This document shows positions 13,472 to 37,136 of a stretch of 64,000 nt of DNA, one piece after another (position 1 is the first letter of the stretch; every line of letters starts with the position of its first letter). Source of the stretch: Nitrospirillum viridazoti CBAmc. Its GTDB lineage: Bacteria; Pseudomonadota; Alphaproteobacteria; Azospirillales; Azospirillaceae. The stretch lies in NCBI RefSeq assembly GCF_000730165.1, contig NZ_CP022110.1, positions 2,301,501 through 2,365,500 of the forward strand, in the 5' to 3' direction. A model generated the notes under the pieces. The model saw only the letters and a list, made by a program, of their open reading frames with translations. It was not told the DNA's origin and ran no database searches. Position numbers and translations under genes: made by a program.

Positions 13472-14043
13472 TCGCCTTGATGCTGACCCTGCTGGCTGTG
13501 ACGGTCACGGCAGGCCTGACCGGGGAACGCGCCTGGACCCGCGTCAGCGAGGCCAAGGCCCGCCGCCGCCAAGCCCTGAACCGGCAGCGTGAACAAAGCC
13601 AGCGCATCCGCCGCCTGGCGCGCGCCACCTACAGCCTGAAGCAGCAACGCCGCCACATCCAGCTGACCATGGAGACATTGCAGGACGAATGCGCGCGGCT
13701 GGAGCAGGACATCAAGCGCATCGCCCGCCCGGAAAACCGCATCTTCGTGCTGGAGGAACGCCGCAACCCCGCCGACGCCGCCTGGATCGCCACGGTGGAA
13801 GTGGGCGGCACCGTCGCCGACAACGCCCTGCCCGCCGCCGTGCCGTGGCAGCGCCGCCGCTTCCTGCTGTGGGCCGGCGATGATGAGGGCGCGCGGGCCC
13901 GGCTGGAGCGGCGCTTTCCCCATGGCAGTGGCTTCCGCGTCAGCCAGCTGATGCTGCGCCCCAACCACGCCGCCCCGCCGGCCGCCACCAGCGGCGGGCT
14001 GGAAACGCGGGCGGCGAAGGCGGCTCGCATTGCGGCGAGTTAG
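13468..14043 (+). CDS. Unrecognised membrane-anchored coiled-coil protein (second of a pair)
   Basis: The 191-residue product has an N-terminal hydrophobic helix (about 2-17), a basic Gln/Arg-rich coiled coil (about 25-90) and a small C-terminal domain with the segments NRIFVLEER, WIATVEVGG and PWQRRRFLLWAGDD. AAGGAG lies 8-9 bases before ATG 13468, a strong site, and the start overlaps the stop of the preceding gene by four bases. The topology (short cytoplasmic tail, helix, coiled coil) resembles division proteins such as FtsL/FtsB in outline only; I see no family motif. The C-terminal end is Ala/Pro-rich. Function is unknown. Confidence 0.7.
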   Translation: MIALMLTLLAVTVTAGLTGERAWTRVSEAKARRRQALNRQREQSQRIRRLARATYSLKQQRRHIQLTMETLQDECARLEQDIKRIARPENRIFVLEERRNPADAAWIATVEVGGTVADNALPAAVPWQRRRFLLWAGDDEGARARLERRFPHGSGFRVSQLMLRPNHAAPPAATSGGLETRAAKAARIAAS

Positions 14044-14047
14044 CCGA

Positions 14048-14362
14048 TCAATCCTCTTTCAAATAGTAATCCGTTATCGTGCAACTGGAAGAATCATAGG
14101 TTACGCCTATCTTCTTCCCTGTAACTTTAGCAGTCATAACGGTCGACCAAAATCTTTCTATCAAATCAGCGGATGCGGTGCTGGGCAGGTTGAGCTGACC
14201 ATTTGGGCATTGACTAGCGGACGTGAACCAGACGACCACGTGGGGTATGTAATCTTGCAGCCGCCATTTTGTGGGTACTTCCTCGACAAAACCCGACGCC
14301 GCATAAGATGCAGCAGGGAAAAATAAGAAAGACACGGCTAATAGGCCGACAATTTTCTTCAT
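14048..14362 (-). CDS. Small secreted protein of unknown function, AT-rich gene
   Basis: The 104-residue product starts MKKIVGLLAVSFLFFPAASYA, a clear signal peptide, and leaves a mature protein of about 83 residues with two cysteines (SQCPNGQ and SSCTITDYY) that could form a disulfide. GGGGGG lies six bases upstream of the ATG. The frame extends upstream to 14479 but that part lacks a signal sequence. The gene is visibly poorer in G+C than everything around it and uses codons such as AAA, ATA and TTT that are rare nearby, which suggests recent acquisition. It sits 52 bases downstream of the SURF1 gene on the same strand. I do not recognise the family. Confidence 0.7.
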   Translation of the reverse strand: MKKIVGLLAVSFLFFPAASYAASGFVEEVPTKWRLQDYIPHVVVWFTSASQCPNGQLNLPSTASADLIERFWSTVMTAKVTGKKIGVTYDSSSCTITDYYLKED

Positions 14363-14414
14363 AAAGCCCCCCAATGAATGCGCCCGCCCCCCCGCGCCCG
14401 CAGGGTCCTTGATA

Positions 14415-15194
14415 TCACGGCGCTCCCCGCTCCCTCTCCACCCGGCTGAAGCGCAGGTAGGCGATGACCGCCAGGGCAACGGCCAGGCAGTACCAGGTGA
14501 TGGCGTACTGCAGATGATCGTTGGGGATGGTGACGCGGGTCTGGCCGCCCACGGGGAAGCCGCCGGGGTTGGGGGTGGCGCCGGCCTCCACCACCACCGG
14601 CTCCGGCACCTCGGTCCCCGCCTTGGCCGCCATGGCCGGCAGGTCGTACCACAGCCAGAAATTGTCGTTCACCAGATTGTCCGGCTGCATCCAGCCGCGG
14701 GGCGGCGGCACGCGGGCCACCCCGTCCACCGTCACCTCGCCTTCCAACTGGCCCTCGGGCCGGCGCGCCGGGTCCTTGCCCTGGGTGGGAACCCAGCCGC
14801 GGTCGACCAGCACCACGCCGCCGCCGTCCGCCCGCACGAAGGGCGTGACGACGTCGTAGCCGGGGGCGCCCTTCAGGGAACGGGCCCCCAGGTACAGCTC
14901 ATGATCATTCAGGAAATGGCCGGTGATGCGCACCCGGCGGTAATCCCAGGCCTTGGGATCATCGATCTTGGCCGGCAGCTCGGCCGGGGCGGCCGCCATC
15001 TGCTGCTGGATGTGATCCAGGATGCCCTGTTTCCAGAACAGGCGTTGCACCTGCCAAGTGCCCAGGCCCGCCATGAACAGGATGGCGCCGCCAGCCACCA
15101 AGCCGCCCCAGAAGGTCGGGCGGAAGCGCCGGCGCCCCTTCGCGACGGGGCCGGGGGTGGCGCCGGTAGGGGACGCGGTGGACGAAGAAGTCAT
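14415..15194 (-). CDS. SURF1 family cytochrome c oxidase assembly protein
   Basis: SURF1 proteins help insert heme a into subunit I of cytochrome c oxidase. The 259-residue product has the family layout: an N-terminal membrane helix (FWGGLVAGGAILFMAGLGTW, about 28-47), a periplasmic domain with YRRVRITGHF, GYDVVTPF and VLVDRGWVP, and a second C-terminal membrane helix (ITWYCLAVALAVIAYL) after NDHLQYA. Its ATG overlaps the stop codon of the DUF983 gene by four bases, so it is translationally coupled as the last recognised member of the cox operon. Confidence 0.94.
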   Translation of the reverse strand: MTSSSTASPTGATPGPVAKGRRRFRPTFWGGLVAGGAILFMAGLGTWQVQRLFWKQGILDHIQQQMAAAPAELPAKIDDPKAWDYRRVRITGHFLNDHELYLGARSLKGAPGYDVVTPFVRADGGGVVLVDRGWVPTQGKDPARRPEGQLEGEVTVDGVARVPPPRGWMQPDNLVNDNFWLWYDLPAMAAKAGTEVPEPVVVEAGATPNPGGFPVGGQTRVTIPNDHLQYAITWYCLAVALAVIAYLRFSRVERERGAP

Positions 15195-30296: not shown

Positions 30297-31055
30297 TCAG
30301 GGCCACTGATCGGCCTCGATGTCCCGGATCGCTGCCGCCAGCCACATGACCGTCGCCGCGTCCGTCTCCCGGGCGCCGGGCTGGACGAAGCCGAAGTGCA
30401 GCAGGTGCTGGTCCACCACCGCCGGGGCCATGCCGCAGGAGGCGTGGACCTCGGTCACGCCGGTCTGGCGGATGAGGTCGACGGCGTTGTCGGGGGTGAC
30501 GCCGCTGCCGGCCATGATGCTGATGCGGCCCTGGGCATGGTCCACCAGCTCGGCGATGGTCTCCGCCCCCTCGACCGCCGTGCGGGCGCAGCCGGAGGTC
30601 AACACGCGTTCGAAGCCCAGCTCGATGGCGATGTCCAGCGCCTCGATGGGGTCGGGGGTCAGGTCGATGGCCCGGTGCAGGGTCAGGCCCAGGCCGCCGG
30701 CACGGTCCACCAGGATGGACAGGGCGGCCGCGTCCAGTTCGCCGCTGGGCAGGCTGGCGCCCAGCACCACGCCGGGCAGGCCCAAGGCCCGCACCGTGTC
30801 GATATCGTCGCCCATGACGTCCAGGTCGGCGGGGCCATAGACGAAGTCGCCCGGGCGAGGGCGGATCATGGCGTAGGCGGGCCGTCCGCTGGCCGCCGCC
30901 AGCGCCATCAGGCCGCGCGACGGCGTCAGGCCGCCCACCACCAGGGCGGCGCACAGCTCCAGCCGGTCGGCCCCCCCCTTGATGGCGGCGGCCACCCCCG
31001 CCGGGCTGTCCACGCACACCTCAAGCCGCACGCGATTCGTTTCCGCCCGGGTCAT
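30297..31055 (-). CDS. cutC: CutC family protein (TIM barrel)
   Basis: The 252-residue product has the CutC pattern: RVRLEVCVDSPAGVAAAI, GADRLELCAALVVGGLTPS, IRPRPGDFVYG, GVVLGASLPSGELD, TLHRAIDLTPDPIEALD, FERVLTSG, ISIMAGSGVTPDNAVDLI and EVHASCG. CutC was named for copper tolerance in E. coli, but later work questioned this and the biochemical role is open. Here it lies 29 bases downstream of the sugar kinase gene on the same strand, in a locus with a glycosylasparaginase and an amino-acid-type transporter, so a role in amino-sugar metabolism is a fair hypothesis. It converges with ubiD, whose stop codon is 14 bases away. Confidence 0.92.
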   Translation of the reverse strand: MTRAETNRVRLEVCVDSPAGVAAAIKGGADRLELCAALVVGGLTPSRGLMALAAASGRPAYAMIRPRPGDFVYGPADLDVMGDDIDTVRALGLPGVVLGASLPSGELDAAALSILVDRAGGLGLTLHRAIDLTPDPIEALDIAIELGFERVLTSGCARTAVEGAETIAELVDHAQGRISIMAGSGVTPDNAVDLIRQTGVTEVHASCGMAPAVVDQHLLHFGFVQPGARETDAATVMWLAAAIRDIEADQWP

Positions 31056-31084
31056 GCCCGCACTCCCCCTCAAGCCTTGTTCCG

Positions 31085-32005
31085 TTACCGGTTCCGTTCC
31101 AGCCACCGGGCGCCCAGGATGGCAGCCCCCAGCATGCCGGCCGCCCCGCCCAGCGCCGTGGGCACCAGCAGCGCCCCCCGGGTTCGGCGCAGGATACGGG
31201 TCCGCACCGCCTGGTCCAATGCCGAAACGAGGGCGGCGTCGGATGACAGGCCGCCCCCCACCGGCACCAGGCCGGCACCCACGGCGTTCACCACCACCGC
31301 CAGGGGATCGGCCACGAGGTCGACATAGATGTCCATCGTGCGGGCGGCGTCGCGGTCGCCGGCATGCCACGCTGCCGTCAGCGCCTGGCTGTCCAGCCGC
31401 ACGCCGTACAGGGCGTGATGCAGGCGCTCCAGCCCCCGGGCGCCACCAATGGTGTCGACGCAGCCCGCCTGGCCGCAGCCGCAAGGCAGGCGGGCCAGGG
31501 TGACGCTGGGATCGCCCGCCACCTGCTTCACCACCGGCCCGTGGCCCCATTCCCCGGCCCCCGGCACCAGGCGGCCGTCCACCACCAGGCCGCCGCCCAC
31601 GCCCGTGCCCAGGATGATGCCGAAAACCGTGTCCTGGCCGCGCGCCGCCCCCACCGTCGCCTCCGCCAGGACGAAGCAGGCGGCGTCGTTGCCCACCACC
31701 ACGGGGCGGCCGAGCGCCGCCGTCAGGTCGGCCACCAGGGGCGTGCCCGTCAGGCAGGGGATGTTGGCGCAGCTGGCCAGCCCCGTCGCGGGATCGATGT
31801 CGCCGGCCAGCGCCAGGGCCACCGGCGCGTCCTCGGGCCCTGGCGCCTGATCGATCAGACCGGCCAGCGCCTGGACGAAGGCGGCGCGGTCGCGGGCCGG
31901 CGTCGGCACCCGCCCGACACGGGTCAGCGCCCCTGTCACCGCGACATCTGTACTGGCTGTCCCCAGGGAAATGTATGACCCGCCGATATCGAAACAGTAT
32001 ATCAA
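31085..32005 (-). CDS. ROK family sugar kinase, probably N-acetylglucosamine kinase
   Basis: The 306-residue protein has the ROK signature: FDIGGSYISLGTA as the phosphate loop, GND107 with the catalytic Asp, ILGTGVGGGLVVDGRLVPGAGEWGH with Glu152 and His155, and the zinc knuckle C175-G-C177-G-Q-A-G-C182. ROK kinases with Glu and His at these places phosphorylate glucose, GlcNAc or N-acetylmannosamine. The linked glycosylasparaginase makes GlcNAc the likeliest substrate here, giving GlcNAc-6-phosphate for NagA, which is not in the window. The start is TTG 32005 with AAGAAGA about 11 bases upstream. It is divergent from the LacI-type regulator. Confidence 0.85.
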   Translation of the reverse strand: MIYCFDIGGSYISLGTASTDVAVTGALTRVGRVPTPARDRAAFVQALAGLIDQAPGPEDAPVALALAGDIDPATGLASCANIPCLTGTPLVADLTAALGRPVVVGNDAACFVLAEATVGAARGQDTVFGIILGTGVGGGLVVDGRLVPGAGEWGHGPVVKQVAGDPSVTLARLPCGCGQAGCVDTIGGARGLERLHHALYGVRLDSQALTAAWHAGDRDAARTMDIYVDLVADPLAVVVNAVGAGLVPVGGGLSSDAALVSALDQAVRTRILRRTRGALLVPTALGGAAGMLGAAILGARWLERNR

Positions 32006-32008
32006 GAT

Positions 32009-32051
32009 TGAAATCTTCTTTCGTTAATGTGCCCGGTTTTATAGGAAACCG
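32009..32051. promoter_or_regulatory. Divergent kinase/regulator promoter region with candidate LacI-type operators
   Basis: The 80-base gap between the kinase (minus) and the regulator (plus) is AT-rich and must hold both promoters. CGGTTT (32034-32039) and AAACCG (32046-32051) form a perfect inverted repeat with a six-base spacer. TGAAATC (32009-32015) followed by TTTC (32019-32022) resembles the palindrome TGAAATCGGTTTCA found in front of the transporter operon. Both are candidate binding sites for the adjacent regulator. Confidence 0.5.
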
Positions 32052-32085
32052 CCGGCACCTTATCGGCGTTGGGAAAGAATAGGGA

Positions 32086-33105
32086 ATGGCTGGGATGGAC
32101 GGGAACGGAACCGACAAGCTGTGCGCACCCCTTCCGGCCAACCCCACCATAAGCGACGTGGCCGAACGGGCCGGCGTGTCGCGGGCGGTGGCGTCCCGGG
32201 CGCTGTCCGACGAACAGCGGCCCGTCTCGGCGGAGAAAAAGGCGCGCGTGCTGCAGGCGGCGCAGGAGCTGGGATTCCGCCCCAACCTGCTGGCCCGCAG
32301 CCTGACCACCAAAAGCGTCAACTTGGTGGCCGTCGTCGTCAACCACATCCATGACCTGAGCGACCTGGATCTGTTCGATCCCCTGCTGGCCGCCGTGCAG
32401 AACATGGGCAAGCAGGTGATTTTCATCCGGGTGGGCTCCAGCGACCGGGTGGAGTCCTTCCTGCGCACCGGCGTCGCCTATCACGTCGACGCCGCCATCG
32501 TCTTTTCCGATTTCGCCGACGCCGCCACCGCCCGCACGCTGTTCCGCAGCGACCAGGTGCTGATGCTGAATGGCCGGCACGATGACGACTCCCCCGCCGT
32601 CATCCCGGATGAGCGGGTGGGCATCACCGAGGCCGTGACCCACGCGGCGCGCCAGGGGGTGAAAAGCGCCGCCCTGGTCACAGGCCGCCTCACGTCCGTC
32701 CTGGAGCAGGCGCGCATTCGTTTGTACCAGGATGCCCTGGCAGCCCAGGGCATCCGGCTGACGGCCAGCCTGCAGGGCGACTATTCCTACGCCAGCGGCC
32801 ACAAGGCGGGAGAGGAGCTGGCGCTCACGCCCCGGCCGGACGCCATCTTCTGCACCTCCGACGCCATGGCCATGGGCGTGCTCGACCGCCTGCGGGCGGA
32901 CTTCCCCCAGGGCCGCGCCACCACCACGCGCCTGTACGGCTTCGACAACCTGTCGCTGACGGATTTCGACGCCTATCCCATTTCCTCCATCGGCTATGAC
33001 AAGCAGGCCTATGTGGCGGCGGTCATCGCCGTGCTGACCGGTGCGGCCACCGGCCCCTGGCCCCTGACCCTGCCCACGCGCTTCCATCCCCGGCTAACCG
33101 GCTGA
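32086..33105 (+). CDS. LacI-type transcriptional regulator
   Basis: The 339-residue protein has an N-terminal helix-turn-helix (TISDVAERAGVSRAVASRAL) and hinge helix (LGFRPNLLARSLTT), then a periplasmic-binding-protein-like sensor domain (VNLVAVVVNHIHDL to the C-terminus) with FCTSDAMAMGVLDRL and LYGFDN. It should repress sugar-uptake genes until its ligand binds. It lies between the kinase gene (divergent) and the transporter operon (convergent; the last 12 bases overlap the end of the binding-protein gene), so it is the probable local regulator, possibly with GlcNAc-Asn or a derivative as inducer. ATG 32086 is used; ATG 32095 is possible. Confidence 0.93.
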   Translation: MAGMDGNGTDKLCAPLPANPTISDVAERAGVSRAVASRALSDEQRPVSAEKKARVLQAAQELGFRPNLLARSLTTKSVNLVAVVVNHIHDLSDLDLFDPLLAAVQNMGKQVIFIRVGSSDRVESFLRTGVAYHVDAAIVFSDFADAATARTLFRSDQVLMLNGRHDDDSPAVIPDERVGITEAVTHAARQGVKSAALVTGRLTSVLEQARIRLYQDALAAQGIRLTASLQGDYSYASGHKAGEELALTPRPDAIFCTSDAMAMGVLDRLRADFPQGRATTTRLYGFDNLSLTDFDAYPISSIGYDKQAYVAAVIAVLTGAATGPWPLTLPTRFHPRLTG

Positions 33106-33873
33106 CAGCGCCGGAACGGCCGCGTCCCGGCCCCACCATTTGCGGTAGTTCGCCTCATACGCCCCGGACTTGATGTAGTCAGCGACGAAGCCGTTCAGCC
33201 AGTGCAGGAATTCCGGATCGCCCTGGGCCAGGCCGATGGCGATGGGTGCATTGGAATAAAGGTCGGGCAGGATCTTCAGGGTGGGATAGACGCTGGCCAG
33301 ATAGTCCATCATGGATGAATCCTCGATGCCGGCATCCACCCGCCGCTGCACCAGCAGCAGCACGCCATCGGGCGCGAAGGTATCGGTGTGGACCAGCTTC
33401 GCCCCCGGCACCGCCTGGCGCAGGAAGGCCTCCCCCGTCGTGCTGCGGCCCACCACCACCCTCTTGCCCGCCAGATCCGACAGCTGGTCGATACCGGCGC
33501 TTTTCTGGACGATGACGCGCAGGCCCGCGCGGTTGTAGGGGATGGTGAAGGCGATGGTCTTGGCGCGTTCCGCCGTGGCCGTCAGGTTGGCCACCGCCAC
33601 GTCGATCTGGCCCGACACCAGCATGCTGACCCGGGCGTCGCCGGAGACGTCGGTGTATTCCACCCGCACCCCCAGCTTGTCCGCCAGACGCTTGGCCACG
33701 TCGACGTCATAGCCGGCGGGCGCGTTGCGGTCGTCGCGGAAGCCCACCGGTTCCCCACCCAGCGACACCCCCACGCGCAGCACGCCGCGCTGGCGGATAT
33801 CCTCCAGCTTGCCGGCCCAGGCGGGCGTCACGAGCAGGAGGGCGGCGAGCATGGGCAACAGCTTGCGCAGCAT
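33094..33873 (-). CDS. Amino-acid-type ABC transporter substrate-binding protein
   Basis: The 259-residue precursor has a signal peptide ending near Ala20 (LLLVTPAWA) and a type II binding-protein fold: LEDIRQRGVLRVGVS, PAGYDVDVAKRLADKLGVRVEYTDVS, VSMLVSGQIDVAVANLTATAERAKTIAF and GKRVVVGRSTTGEAF. It belongs to the polar amino acid transporter group and should bind its ligand through the alpha-amino and carboxyl groups. It is the last gene of the permease-permease-ATPase-glycosylasparaginase operon, separated from it by a hairpin and a repeat element (33874-34020), which may let it be made in larger amounts than the membrane parts. Confidence 0.92.
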   Translation of the reverse strand: MLRKLLPMLAALLLVTPAWAGKLEDIRQRGVLRVGVSLGGEPVGFRDDRNAPAGYDVDVAKRLADKLGVRVEYTDVSGDARVSMLVSGQIDVAVANLTATAERAKTIAFTIPYNRAGLRVIVQKSAGIDQLSDLAGKRVVVGRSTTGEAFLRQAVPGAKLVHTDTFAPDGVLLLVQRRVDAGIEDSSMMDYLASVYPTLKILPDLYSNAPIAIGLAQGDPEFLHWLNGFVADYIKSGAYEANYRKWWGRDAAVPALSAG

Positions 33874-33890
33874 GGGAATTCCTTATGCGA

Positions 33891-33986
33891 CCCTCAGACG
33901 CCGGACACCGCCATCCGGCGGCTTGGCTTTCTCAGTTTCCAGTCCACTGCGTTCCCCGAAAACCTCCGGCGGACACAGTCGTGTCC
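33891..33986 (+). repeat. Dispersed intergenic repeat, copy C
   Basis: This copy starts CCCTCAGACGCCGG. Hairpin 1 is CCGCC-ATCC-GGCGG (33908-33921) and hairpin 2 is GGACAC-AGTC-GTGTCC (33971-33986). The middle (CTTGGCTTTCTCAGTTTCCAG and on to CTCCGGCGG) aligns with copy A at 44991-45104 base for base over much of its length. The stems differ from copies A and B but pairing is kept. It lies between the glycosylasparaginase and binding-protein genes. Confidence 0.75.
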
Positions 33987-33990
33987 GACA

Positions 33991-34016
33991 GCGGCATGAG
34001 CCGCGTCTCATGCCGC
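33991..34016 (-). terminator. Hairpin just after the glycosylasparaginase gene
   Basis: GCGGCATGAG and its exact complement pair around a six-base loop, beginning five bases after the stop codon. There is no U-tract, so it is more likely an attenuator or mRNA stabiliser between the enzyme and binding-protein genes than a full terminator. Confidence 0.5.
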
Positions 34017-34020
34017 TGGG

Positions 34021-34938
34021 CTAAACCGTACGGGCGATGCGTTCCTCAGGGGCGGACAGCAACGGATCCCAATACCAATAGCGAATGGCAGGGCCACAGC
34101 GGAAGCTGACCACCTCATGGTTGCCGTGGGCGTCCAGCGCGTGGATGACCACGCCGGCCAGGAAGCCCTCGCGCAACTCCGCCAGGTCCGCCACCGCCAG
34201 GTCCACCGCCTCGCGCAGGGATTTGCCCAGCTGCAAGGCCAGGACGATGGCGCGGGCGGTGCCGCAGCGCACCGTCATCTCCCCCGTATGGGTGCAGGCG
34301 GCGGCACCGAAACGGCTGTCGGCGTAGAAGCCGGCGCCGGCGATGGGCGAGTCGCCCAGACGACCGGGGTACTTCCACGCCCAGCCGGAGGTGCTGGTGG
34401 CCGCGTGCAGGTCGCCTCCGGCGTCCTGTCCCAGGAACACCGTGGTGTCGCGCACCCGCTCGGGATCGGTGATGGCGCGGCTGAGCGGCGCCAGCGGGAT
34501 GTTGGGGAAGGCGGCAAGGTCAGCGGGCGGCAGCTCCTTCTGCAGCCGCTCCCACCACACCCGGCGCGAATCCTCCAGCAGCGTCGGTTCCACGTCGAAC
34601 CCGCACTCCAAGGCGAAGCGGCGGGCCCCGTCACCGGTCAGCAGGGTGTGCGGCAGGCGGCGCATGACCTGCAGGGCCACCGCACTGGCCGGGATGACGT
34701 CGCGCAACGCCCCGACCGCCCCCACCTGGCGGGTGCCGCCGTCCATGACGCCGGCGTCGAACTCCATCTCCCCCAGCATGTTGGGCCAGCCGCCGTAGCC
34801 GACGCTGCGCACCGTCGCCTCACGCTCCACCCGCGCGATGCCGGCCACCAGGGGGTCGGGTCCCCGCTCCCCCGCCCTCAGGCGATCAATGGTGGTCTGG
34901 AACCCGGGCCAAGCCTCGGAATTTGCGATCAAAATCAT
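34021..34938 (-). CDS. Glycosylasparaginase (N4-(beta-N-acetylglucosaminyl)-L-asparaginase), cytoplasmic
   Basis: The 305-residue protein is an N-terminal nucleophile hydrolase of the asparaginase-2 family. Autocleavage should occur before Thr165 in RDTTVFLGQD, leaving it as the nucleophile. The residues that bind GlcNAc-Asn in characterised enzymes are matched: Trp10 (NSEAW), Thr183 region (TSTSG), Arg193 and Asp196 in PGRLGDSPIAGAGF, and Thr218-Gly219 (THTGEM). These point to glycosylasparaginase rather than isoaspartyl peptidase. There is no signal peptide, unlike the Elizabethkingia and lysosomal enzymes, so the substrate must be imported. Its ATG overlaps the ATPase stop codon by four bases. 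Confidence 0.88.
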   Translation of the reverse strand: MILIANSEAWPGFQTTIDRLRAGERGPDPLVAGIARVEREATVRSVGYGGWPNMLGEMEFDAGVMDGGTRQVGAVGALRDVIPASAVALQVMRRLPHTLLTGDGARRFALECGFDVEPTLLEDSRRVWWERLQKELPPADLAAFPNIPLAPLSRAITDPERVRDTTVFLGQDAGGDLHAATSTSGWAWKYPGRLGDSPIAGAGFYADSRFGAAACTHTGEMTVRCGTARAIVLALQLGKSLREAVDLAVADLAELREGFLAGVVIHALDAHGNHEVVSFRCGPAIRYWYWDPLLSAPEERIARTV

Positions 34939-35708
34939 GCGGGGATCTCGGCAAGGGGGGCGGCGGGCGCCATCTTGGACAGGAATTGACGAATGCGCGG
35001 ATGGGCCAAACCACCATCCGCGGCGAAGAACTGGTCCGTGGGCAGGTCGACGATCAGGCGCCCCTGGTCCAGGAAGACGATGCGGGTGGAGATGCGCCGG
35101 GCGAATTCCACCTCATGCGTCACGAACAGCATGGTGGTGCCGCCCCCTCCGGATTGACGGGCCGCCAGTTTACCCAGGATGGCCAACACCTCCGCCGTCA
35201 TCTCGGGATCCAGCGCGCTGGTCACCTCATCCAGCAGCAGGTAGCGCGGATTCATGGCCAGTGCCCGGCAGATGCCCACGCGCTGGCGCTGCCCGCCCGA
35301 CAGCTGGCCGGGATAGGAGTCGGCCTTGCCCGCCAGCCCCACGCTGGCCAGCAGGGCGTGGGCCTGCGCCTCCACCTCATCCCTGGGGCGCCTCAGCACC
35401 AGTTCCGGCGCCAGGGTGATGTTTCGCAGCACCGTCATGTGGGGGTAGAGGTTGAACATCTGGAACACGGTGGCCGACAGGCGGCGCGCCCGGGCCAGCT
35501 GGCGCGGGTCGGACACGTCCAGCCCATCCACGGTGATGCGGCCGCCGTCCAGCGCCTCCAGCCCGTTGATGCAACGGATCAGCGTGCTTTTGCCCGAGCC
35601 GCTGGACCCCAGGATGGTCACCACCTCCCCCGGCGCCACCGTCAGGCTGACCCCGTCCAGCACCGTGTGGGCGCCAAAGCGCTTGACCACGCCCTCCACC
35701 GCCATCAT
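34935..35708 (-). CDS. Amino-acid-type ABC transporter ATP-binding protein
   Basis: The 257-residue ATPase has Walker A GSSGSGKST (34-42), the Q-loop in VFQMFNLYPHMTVL, the signature LSGGQRQRVGICRAL, Walker B YLLLDEVTSALDPE and the switch His in FVTHEVEFA. The pattern NLYPHMTVL and DEVTSALDPE are usual for GlnQ-type polar amino acid importers. Two adjacent ATG codons (35708 and 35705) are possible starts. It follows the second permease by 18 bases and is coupled to the glycosylasparaginase by a four-base overlap, so transport and cleavage are made together. Confidence 0.94.
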   Translation of the reverse strand: MMAVEGVVKRFGAHTVLDGVSLTVAPGEVVTILGSSGSGKSTLIRCINGLEALDGGRITVDGLDVSDPRQLARARRLSATVFQMFNLYPHMTVLRNITLAPELVLRRPRDEVEAQAHALLASVGLAGKADSYPGQLSGGQRQRVGICRALAMNPRYLLLDEVTSALDPEMTAEVLAILGKLAARQSGGGGTTMLFVTHEVEFARRISTRIVFLDQGRLIVDLPTDQFFAADGGLAHPRIRQFLSKMAPAAPLAEIPA

Positions 35709-35726
35709 GCCGTCATCTCCAGCCCC

Positions 35727-36398
35727 CTAAAGCCCCAGCGGAGCGGCATGGGCGCGCAGCCGCCGCTCCCATCGATTGCCCAGCAGCGTCAACGTCTTGG
35801 CCGCCGCGAAATACAGCACGCCCACCATGGCCCACACGGCGAAGGGACGCAGGGTGCGCAGGTTCAGGATGTCACCGGCCTTGGTCAGGTCCACCACCCC
35901 GATGACGGAGACCAGGGAGGTCACCTGCAACTGGTTGACCGCCAGGCCCACCAGCGGCGCCACCGCGAAGGCGAGCGCCTGGGGCCCCAGAATGTGGCGC
36001 ACCAGCTGGACCCGGCTGAGGCCGAAGGCGCGCGCCGCCTCCACCTGGTCCCGCCCCACCGCGTCCAGGCCGGCAACGGCGATGAAATAGACGAAGGCCG
36101 CCGTGTTGGCCGACAGGGTCAGGCCCGCGGCGAAGACGGGCGTCAGCGGCTGGTGGATCAAGGCCGGCACCCCGAAGAAGACCAGGAACAGCTGCACCAG
36201 CACGGGGGAATTGCGCAGCAGTTCCAGGCCGGTGTGCAGCAGGGTGCCCAGTGCCGGCACACGGAAGTGGCGCACCACGGCCGCGCCCGATCCCAGGACC
36301 AGCCCGATGAGGAAGGTGCCGGCGAACAGGCCCAGGCTGACGGCCAAGCCCTGGGCCAGCAAAGCGCCGTCATGCCATGTGAAGCCGGCGTGCCGCAT
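35727..36398 (-). CDS. Amino-acid-type ABC transporter permease (second)
   Basis: The 223-residue membrane protein is a HisM/GlnP-type permease: GLAVSLGLFAGTFLIGLVLG and LELLRNSPVLVQLFLVFFGVP in the N-terminal half, and the EAA loop QVEAARAFGLSRVQLVRHILGPQAL that docks on the ATPase. The ATG shares one base with the stop codon of the first permease (TGATG), so translation is coupled. The reading frame is open further upstream but that part has no membrane character. Confidence 0.92.
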   Translation of the reverse strand: MRHAGFTWHDGALLAQGLAVSLGLFAGTFLIGLVLGSGAAVVRHFRVPALGTLLHTGLELLRNSPVLVQLFLVFFGVPALIHQPLTPVFAAGLTLSANTAAFVYFIAVAGLDAVGRDQVEAARAFGLSRVQLVRHILGPQALAFAVAPLVGLAVNQLQVTSLVSVIGVVDLTKAGDILNLRTLRPFAVWAMVGVLYFAAAKTLTLLGNRWERRLRAHAAPLGL

Positions 36399-37105
36399 CA
36401 GGCCGTCCTCCCCATCACCCCATGAGTTGCCCCAGGGGCCGCCCCGTTCTCCGCCATGTGCCGGTTCAGGCGCCGGTGCAGGGCGTCGATTCCCAGTGAC
36501 ACGGCATAGGTCAGGCCGGCGTAGGCGGCCAGCAGGAAGGCGTAGACCTCGAACGGGCGGTAGGTTTCCGACGCCACGCCCCGGGCCGTCCCCGTCACCT
36601 CGTCCAGCGTGATCATGGACAGGATGGAGGAGCTGAGCACCAGGTTCACGAAAACGGAACCCAGGGGCCGGATGGCGGTGCGCAGGGCGATGGGCAGGAC
36701 GACGCGGCGGATGATGGCGAGCCGGGACAGGCCGCTGACCTTCGCGGCCTCGACCACGCCGGGCTCGATCGCCAGGATGCCGCTGCGCACCACATCGCTG
36801 CCATAGGCGCCACCCACCAGGCCGAGCGCCAGCACGCCGGTCCAGAAGGCGTCGATATACACGCCCACCTCGGGCAGGCCGTAGAACAGGAAGAAGACCT
36901 GCACCACGAAGGGCACATTGCGGAAGACGTCGACATACAGCCGCGCCAGTCGGCCCGCCCAGCCCCTGCCAACCGCCAGCAGCCCCAGCGCCGTGGCCAG
37001 CGTGAACGCGCCGACGATGCCCAGCGCGCACACCTCCGCCGTCAGCAGGGCACCCGCCAACAGCGTGTCCAGATGGGGCGTCAGCACCGTGAGGTCGAAG
37101 GGCAA
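36398..37105 (-). CDS. Amino-acid-type ABC transporter permease (first)
   Basis: The 235-residue permease has the same family layout as its neighbour: LLAGALLTAEVCALGIVGAF, VDVFRNVPFVVQVFFLFYGLP and the EAA loop VVEAAKVSGLSRLAIIRRVVLPIAL. Two different permeases suggest a heterodimeric channel. The start is TTG 37105 with AGGGA about six bases upstream; the first in-frame ATG is far downstream. It is the first gene of the operon, and a LacI-type palindrome lies 18 bases before its start codon. Confidence 0.92.
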   Translation of the reverse strand: MPFDLTVLTPHLDTLLAGALLTAEVCALGIVGAFTLATALGLLAVGRGWAGRLARLYVDVFRNVPFVVQVFFLFYGLPEVGVYIDAFWTGVLALGLVGGAYGSDVVRSGILAIEPGVVEAAKVSGLSRLAIIRRVVLPIALRTAIRPLGSVFVNLVLSSSILSMITLDEVTGTARGVASETYRPFEVYAFLLAAYAGLTYAVSLGIDALHRRLNRHMAENGAAPGATHGVMGRTA

Positions 37106-37122: not shown

Positions 37123-37136
37123 TGAAATCGGTTTCA
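37123..37136. promoter_or_regulatory. Candidate operator of the transporter-glycosylasparaginase operon
   Basis: TGAAATCGGTTTCA matches its reverse complement at 12 of 14 positions and has the central CG and flanking GAAA/TTTC typical of LacI-family operators. It sits 18 bases before the TTG start of the first permease, where a bound repressor would block transcription. The half-site CGGTTT also occurs as a perfect inverted repeat in the regulator promoter. Confidence 0.6.

Follow-up and report, generated by a model that had tools for sequence, protein, structure and literature searches.

The window analysed here is the whole stretch of 64,000 nucleotides of Nitrospirillum viridazoti CBAmc (contig NZ_CP022110.1), from a genome of 7.38 Mb in four contigs, and its positions 30297 to 37105 hold a locus that is probably an operon for scavenging glycoasparagines by import and cleavage. 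The features are listed here from the operator along the operon and on to the neighbouring genes.

37123..37136, about 30 bp before permease A: predicted LacI operator TGAAATCGGTTTCA, a near-perfect palindrome with a CG centre (motif TGAAANCGNTTTCA)
36398..37105, minus strand: permease A, polar-amino-acid type, TTG start (PF00528; TIGR01726, 85.9 bits against a cut-off of 42.2)
35727..36398, minus strand: permease B, polar-amino-acid type (PF00528; TIGR01726, 53.1 bits against 42.2; open frame 35727-36500 used for the family scan)
34935..35708, minus strand: ATP-binding cassette (ABC) ATPase, GlnQ/TcyN-like (PF00005; best NCBIfam match GlnQ, 250.1 bits)
34021..34938, minus strand: AGA, a cytoplasmic glycosylasparaginase-type Ntn-hydrolase of the Asparaginase_2 family, DTTV/THTG subfamily (PF01112, 162.7 bits against 27)
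33989..34018, minus strand: hairpin with a 12-bp stem, directly 3' of the AGA stop codon and before the binding-protein gene (from fold energy)
33094..33873, minus strand: periplasmic binding protein SBP_bac_3 with a leader peptide (PF00497, 114.8 bits)
32086..33105, plus strand: LacI-family regulator, predicted repressor of the import-AGA operon (PF00356, PF13377)
31085..32005, minus strand: ROK sugar kinase, NagK-like, TTG start (PF00480, 151 bits; NCBIfam PRK13310)
30297..31055, minus strand: CutC-family protein (PF03932, 251.1 bits against 23.3)

The permease, ATPase, AGA and binding-protein genes form a single minus-strand operon, as a preliminary description of this DNA had it, and the four-base overlap that it gave for the ATPase and AGA genes is confirmed (ATGA, 34938 against 34935). 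Every gene that it named is present with a match to the expected family in Pfam and NCBIfam scans, all eight proteins of the locus exceeding the curated cut-offs of their Pfam families, and coordinates and Pfam matches place the LacI regulator, the ROK kinase and CutC beside the operon: the LacI and binding-protein genes are convergent with a 12-base overlap, LacI is divergent from ROK, and CutC follows ROK. The transporter has the features of a polar amino acid importer, with both permeases above the TIGR01726 cut-off, a family-3 binding protein (PF00497) and an ATPase whose best match is GlnQ, at 250.1 bits against an NCBIfam equivalog cut-off of 379 bits, below which it falls. By eye the binding protein carries a Sec-type leader, and no leader is seen on AGA at MILIANSEAWPGF..., in agreement with the leaderless enzyme described before; the substrate of AGA should therefore be imported.

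Relatives were collected by scanning contigs with the AGA protein, and the locus counts given here rest on the best 80 of 406 relatives. The five-gene core (both permeases, ATPase, AGA and binding protein) stands together in 77 of these 80 orthologous loci and is incomplete in L077, L082 and L136, so that the association of the genes is more than chance and the operon is real and widely conserved; co-occurrence in other genomes, on which the preliminary description let its case depend, thus turns out in its favour. Close packing of the ATPase and AGA genes is general and the exact overlap is not, since four bases are shared in 5 of the 77 core loci and the distance is -1 to +16 nt in the other 72 (with starts mapped from the window's protein). 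LacI is found in 72 core loci, and ROK and CutC in 44, always both together and in either of two positions, beyond LacI (28 loci) or upstream of the permeases (16 loci). This bears on an alternative in which the transporter is an ordinary importer of amino acids or beta-aspartyl compounds, AGA is an isoaspartyl peptidase or asparaginase, and ROK and CutC are unrelated neighbours. The polar-amino-acid type of the transporter would suit such an importer, but ROK and CutC accompany the operon as a pair in either position, and for this reason we judge it unlikely that they are mere neighbours.

The loci belong to Nitrospirillum/Azospirillum (5 loci), to Phyllobacterium, Mesorhizobium, Aminobacter, Rhizobium, Devosia, Labrys and other genera, which we take to be Rhizobiales, to Duganella, Massilia and Herbaspirillum, presumably Burkholderiales, and to Jeongeupia, presumably of the Neisseriales. 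An AGA orthologue is present in all seven genomes of the genus, the window's included, and the best AGA match among 28 other genomes of the family is at the level of a paralogue (E 4.8e-26). Matches at E<=1e-28 occur in 11 of 385 genomes of the class sample, seven of these, again with the window's, having at least 44% identity, while 3 of 398 genomes of the phylum sample match at E<=1e-45, and two orders sampled for AGA give 18 of 297 and 2 of 295 genomes at E<=1e-60. The distribution of the system is patchy across these samples, and putative horizontal spread is likely.

The best matches of AGA in the Protein Data Bank (PDB) are the glycosylasparaginases of Elizabethkingia at 118 bits, with 95 bits for the best other entry. 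In an alignment of 88 rows (the window, L043 and L053-L139 minus L059; 83 distinct sequences; Elizabethkingia numbering) residues D151, T170, R180, D183 and T203 are kept in every row and T152 in 87, the exception being the orphan copy at L077. The window's AGA has the Asp-Thr autocleavage site with its catalytic Thr, and it has R180 and D183, which in glycosylasparaginases bind the alpha-carboxyl and alpha-amino groups of the substrate and are each present in 88 of 88 rows. In place of the DTIG and TGHG signatures of the solved Elizabethkingia enzyme all 88 rows carry DTTV and THTG, and we regard AGA as a putative glycosylasparaginase subfamily, with an activity that is predicted. A second Asparaginase_2 member of the genome, which has GTVG, resembles an isoaspartyl peptidase; the isoaspartyl reading of AGA is weakened because this separate paralogue exists, and the better score against glycosylasparaginases than against any other PDB entry also tells against it. 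The orphan L077 copy (L077:10001-10915, Gellertiella) is an AGA gene without the operon that has Asn at the position of the expected nucleophile Thr, and its product may be inactive.

Further evidence on the substrate comes from AGA genes in other contexts. The AGA gene at L082, in Mesorhizobium albiziae, shares a four-base overlap with the end of a glycoside hydrolase family 20 (GH20) hexosaminidase gene; its product is 72% identical to the AGA of the window, and the run also includes a sugar importer of the MalK type and a regulator of the RpiR type. At L157 AGA (63% identity) and NagA are arranged tail to tail, with BadFG-type kinase, GntR/UTRA, GH3 and ROK genes nearby (Pfam) as well as NagK and GH20 matches; L158, of the same genus, has the same tail-to-tail pair with NagK, ROK and GH20 matches, and on the 3.4-kb contig of L159 only NagA was found beside AGA. 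The L082 and NagA-linked copies carry the same DTTV/THTG signatures as the window's enzyme. Because AGA orthologues adjoin GH20 and NagA genes, the N-acetylglucosamine (GlcNAc) conjugate of asparagine, GlcNAc-Asn, is indicated, and it or a close relative is the best-supported candidate substrate. These contexts, with the co-occurrence of the core genes, support the import and breakdown of GlcNAc-Asn proposed in the preliminary description. They also lower the isoaspartyl-peptidase reading, together with the GTVG paralogue, and although a distant AGA homologue does lie beside an amino-acid-type binding protein (L166, by eye), we hold an ordinary importer with unrelated neighbours to be quite improbable.

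Two small proteins near AGA in these GlcNAc contexts are alike (L082:11322-11798, compared by eye, and L157:4913-5386, a GNAT acetyltransferase in Pfam), and AGA is divergent from CutC at L165. A protein of about 450-470 amino acids lies beside LacI, CutC or the permeases at L113 (12900-14288) and 13 other loci (14 of 80), for which no significant match was found in Pfam (three copies), NCBIfam or the PDB (one copy each). Its most divergent copy, at L128, has a weak likeness to Creatinase_N and Peptidase_M24 in a laxer scan, and the protein is possibly a peptidase that trims glycopeptides.

The imported compound could also be another conjugate of a sugar with asparagine or another amino acid, such as a GlcNAc-Asn that is extended or bears fucose, a short glycopeptide or an Amadori compound, which would be trimmed before AGA acts. 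Support for this comes from the M24-like protein in 14 of 80 loci, from L153, where AGA comes after an importer of the Opp type and an M17 aminopeptidase, from a GH29 fucosidase gene near the genome's own nag locus, and from the existence of a family-3 binding protein for deoxyfructosyl amino acids (PDB 5l9o), itself far from the best match (E 2e-14); in lactobacilli, moreover, the peptidase gene pepV is linked to asnA2, as given in the available part of one study (PMC6960285). However, no glycosidase, deglycase or peptidase was found among the eight genes scanned at the window's locus, and linkage to GH20 and NagA indicates GlcNAc; we consider such a different conjugate unlikely, with GlcNAc-Asn itself preferred.

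The binding protein is consistent with a ligand of this kind. In family-3 binding proteins Thr, Arg and Asp positions hold the alpha-carboxyl and alpha-amino groups of the ligand, and these anchors are kept in all 80 distinct rows of an alignment of 85. Gly replaces the first aromatic clamp in every one of the 80; at the second clamp 66 rows have Gly, 13 have Ser and one has Ala. Three other binding proteins of the genome align over both clamp positions, and the residues there are Y/W or F/W in two and L/G in the third. The loss of the clamp with retention of the anchors would fit a ligand with a bulky side group.

The ROK kinase has as its best NCBIfam match PRK13310, N-acetylglucosamine kinase (180.9 bits), and as its best PDB matches 2ap1, 7p7i and 4db3. 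Hallmarks of ROK/NagK proteins are an E-x-G-H motif and a Cys-rich zinc motif, and the corresponding GEWGH and CGCGQAGC of the window's protein align with 2ap1 and 7p7i. As for the nagA and nagB genes that the preliminary description proposed to look for elsewhere in the genome, two nagA genes are present above the TIGR00221 cut-off, and for classic nagB there is no TIGR00502 match in this genome, nor one above cut-off in any of 40 genomes. Genes for SIS and BadFG-kinase proteins adjoin both nagA genes (Pfam-confirmed at L150, by eye at L151), and the GH29 fucosidase gene is about 5 kb from the first. The genome also contains a GH85 endoglycosidase gene (74.8 bits against a cut-off of 22.2, a partial match, with a leader by eye) adjoining a TonB-receptor gene (L234:8026-13366, contig C3); of 14 control genomes, one has GH85. 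Given its nagA, SIS/BadFG and GH85 genes, the genome appears equipped both to uncover stubs of GlcNAc-Asn and to metabolise GlcNAc. Symporter-like and LacI-like genes are seen by eye near the GH85/TonB pair, a region that perhaps serves the foraging of glycoprotein glycans.

A plausible scheme, which we infer from these genes, is that the exported binding protein would bind GlcNAc-beta-N-Asn, or a closely related compound, through the alpha-amino and carboxyl groups that are free on it, and that the ABC importer would carry it into the cell, where AGA would cut the N4 amide to give aspartate and 1-amino-GlcNAc. The latter would yield GlcNAc and ammonia, the ROK kinase would convert GlcNAc to GlcNAc 6-phosphate, and NagA and an SIS-type deaminase encoded elsewhere in the genome would route this to glycolysis. 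The LacI protein would repress the import-AGA operon at a single palindromic operator.

Several observations weigh against this scheme. The AGA changes I153T, G154V and G204H, near the active site and present in 88 of 88 rows, mean that substrate preference could differ from that of the solved enzyme, and the N-terminal Trp motif is not fixed, E-x-WPGF being missing in 7 of 88 rows and the Trp itself in two of those seven and in the NagA-linked copies. The distant homologues at L044-L048 and L166-L170 are without a match to nagA, nagK, SIS or GH20 queries, and the one at L166 stands beside an ordinary-looking amino-acid binding protein (by eye); these contexts speak against a GlcNAc link as a rule for the whole family. 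The loss of the clamp is not unique to this binding protein, given the L/G of another in the genome, the ROK kinase lies under the PRK13310 equivalog cut-off for NagK (180.9 against 380 bits), and ROK and CutC are missing from 33 of the 77 core loci. With respect to regulation, no operator site was found before ROK in the window, and L082 has an operator-like site (14025) that is without a LacI orthologue and does not precede AGA.

The motif TGAAANCGNTTTCA has just one exact match in the 7.38-Mb genome, the site upstream of permease A. A site of this type precedes permease A in 71 of the 72 core loci with LacI and in none of the five without it; the exception among the former (L134) is cut by a contig end, and one of the latter (L098) is on a short contig. 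L136, which has AGA, LacI, ROK and CutC and no transporter, carries the palindrome 38 bp before AGA, and L154 has it before permease A with a LacI that is only 37% identical. The regulator has the LacI helix-turn-helix domain (PF00356), and the co-occurrence of the CG-centred palindrome with its gene is strong comparative evidence for the predicted control of import and cleavage by the LacI protein; the operon is thus apparently regulated. In 20 of 80 loci AGA itself contains a sequence resembling the operator (an exact match in 2, one end base different in 18); because coding constraint may account for these sequences, they were set aside. So was an inverted repeat of the window between LacI and ROK, which is common to only 2 of 6 relatives in the genus (L054 and L055, by eye). 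The operator, like the wider link of CutC described below, goes beyond what the preliminary description had claimed.

CutC was sampled across the phylum because it travels with ROK and AGA, and it is present in 31 of 239 genomes. Thirty neighbourhoods of 12.6 kb (within 6 kb of CutC, the window's own locus excluded) were searched with a first query set taken from elsewhere, and nine contain a homologue of AGA, ROK, NagA, NagK or SIS, being ROK only in two of them (L193 and L210), with nothing found by that set in the other 21. Queries from these loci add a GH2 mannosidase-type gene at L191, for 10 of 30. The control consisted of 20 stretches of 12.6 kb taken arbitrarily from 20 of these genomes, and the larger query set finds nothing in any of them; 9 of 30 against 0 of 20 gives a Fisher p of 0.007, with a small control and with several of the sampled genomes from the same genus. 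CutC overlaps a glycosylasparaginase-type gene by four bases at L194, L197 and L207, and at L212 CutC stands after a GH2 mannosidase-type gene and is followed in turn by GH85, AGA and a NagK-like gene, the pairs CutC-GH85 and GH85-AGA each overlapping by four bases. The AGA proteins of these four loci carry HDTIG or HDTLG, like the characterised enzyme. At L209 and L211 CutC ends runs of amino-sugar genes with SIS, ROK and NagA, with a GatZ/KbaZ-like gene in L209, which suggests an N-acetylgalactosamine-type route too.

The best PDB match of CutC is the human homologue 3iwp. An alignment of 34 CutC proteins (the window's, 14 from AGA loci and 19 of the 30 sampled) has E12, R31, E33, H127, R128, D131 and H204 invariant in 34 of 34. 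The CutC cysteines are the proposed copper site; both are present in the window's protein, 31 of the 34 proteins keep C14 and 32 keep C35, and both are missing in L194 and L197, whose CutC genes overlap the glycosylasparaginase-type gene. For the CutC of Syn3.0, the accessible portion of one report considers copper binding unlikely and suggests another metal, possibly zinc (PMC4993169). In the literature searched, the closest approach to the CutC link concerns Xanthomonas, where VirK is connected to CutC, nixI and an asparaginase through interactions predicted from databases (PMC5700972).

We raise, tentatively and as somewhat doubtful, the possibility that CutC is primarily an enzyme of N-acetylhexosamine catabolism rather than a copper protein, its most specific possible role being the processing, for instance the hydrolysis, of the 1-amino-GlcNAc released by glycosylasparaginase. 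Such a function would explain the membership of CutC in the operon, its overlaps with AGA and GH85, its linkage to NagA and the invariant Glu, Arg, Glu, His, Arg, Asp and His residues. As 1-amino-GlcNAc is called unstable at acidic pH in the part of the lactobacillus study available (PMC6960285), it might persist in a neutral cytoplasm. Against this particular job, the AGA proteins of L197, L207 and L212, in contrast to that of the window, seem by eye to be exported, and a leaderless CutC would therefore need an imported product there. If true, the idea provides a testable function for a protein retained in the minimal cell Syn3.0; the tie to sugar-stub metabolism is the most surprising part of the analysis and a concrete lead on a conserved copper-annotated protein.

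Among other features of the locus and its relatives, we note that the hairpin lies in the 147-nt gap between the AGA stop codon and the binding-protein gene, where a 56-nt stretch folds at -29.4 kcal/mol (z -4.32, equalled by 0 of 200 shuffles). It is a possible mRNA stabiliser or attenuator, and perhaps separates expression of the binding protein from that of the rest of the operon. In four of the 80 loci, all Aureimonas (L081, L088, L089 and L091), a GlmS-like SIS protein and a different ROK stand beside LacI in place of ROK and CutC (for example L089:12833-13972 and 14010-14954), and the transporter-less AGA of L136 is followed by three successive genes (L136:11078-12887) that fit no family of Pfam or NCBIfam under the cut-offs applied.

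What finally remains of an N-glycoprotein as it decays is a glycoasparagine stub, and a few known systems invite comparison. The fra locus of Salmonella uses fructose-asparagine as food by a phosphorylation and deglycase route; the likeness is in the use of a sugar-asparagine conjugate, and the difference is that this route is not found among the eight genes here. The deoxyfructosyl-amino-acid binding protein 5l9o, which we take to be of Agrobacterium origin, is likewise a family-3 binding protein for a sugar-amino-acid conjugate, but is distant in sequence and concerns Amadori chemistry rather than an N-glycosidic amide. The Elizabethkingia meningoseptica glycosylasparaginase (PDB 9gaf, 1p4k and others) shares with the window's AGA the family, the D-T cleavage and nucleophile site, T170, R180, D183 and T203, whereas AGA has DTTV for DTIG and THTG for TGHG and belongs to an import operon; the Elizabethkingia enzyme has a signal peptide, as stated in the available text of PMC6960285, and AGA has none.

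The closest parallel is the alf-2 system of Lactobacillus casei, for which the accessible sections of the same study (PMC6960285) describe uptake of fucosyl-alpha-1,6-GlcNAc-Asn by AlfH, a permease of the major facilitator superfamily (MFS), together with an intracellular fucosidase AlfC, a leaderless glycosylasparaginase AsnA2, a kinase SugK and an aspartate decarboxylase AsdA, a pathway proven by mutants and assays. GlcNAc-Asn alone gave no growth, from which the authors infer that AlfH requires the fucose (PMC6960285). Both systems have a leaderless glycosylasparaginase, a sugar kinase and a local regulator, GlcNAc-Asn being split there to aspartate and GlcNAc; the window's locus has an ABC importer, LacI, ROK and CutC where alf-2 has the MFS permease, AlfC and AsdA, and family scans find neither a fucosidase nor an MFS permease among its eight genes. 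No description of the present operon was found in the literature searched, which mostly leaves out subscription journals, and within it, as far as the available text goes, the sole bacterial route of glycoasparagine uptake is that of the lactobacilli, for the fucosylated form. The window's locus thus resembles alf-2 in its working and is not a member of it, since it has another transporter, another regulator and other partner genes. The concept was already known in L. casei, and the version with an ABC transporter appears to be new. The locus predicts that many bacteria of soil and plants have an ABC route devoted to these compounds, and it makes a sharp prediction about regulation.

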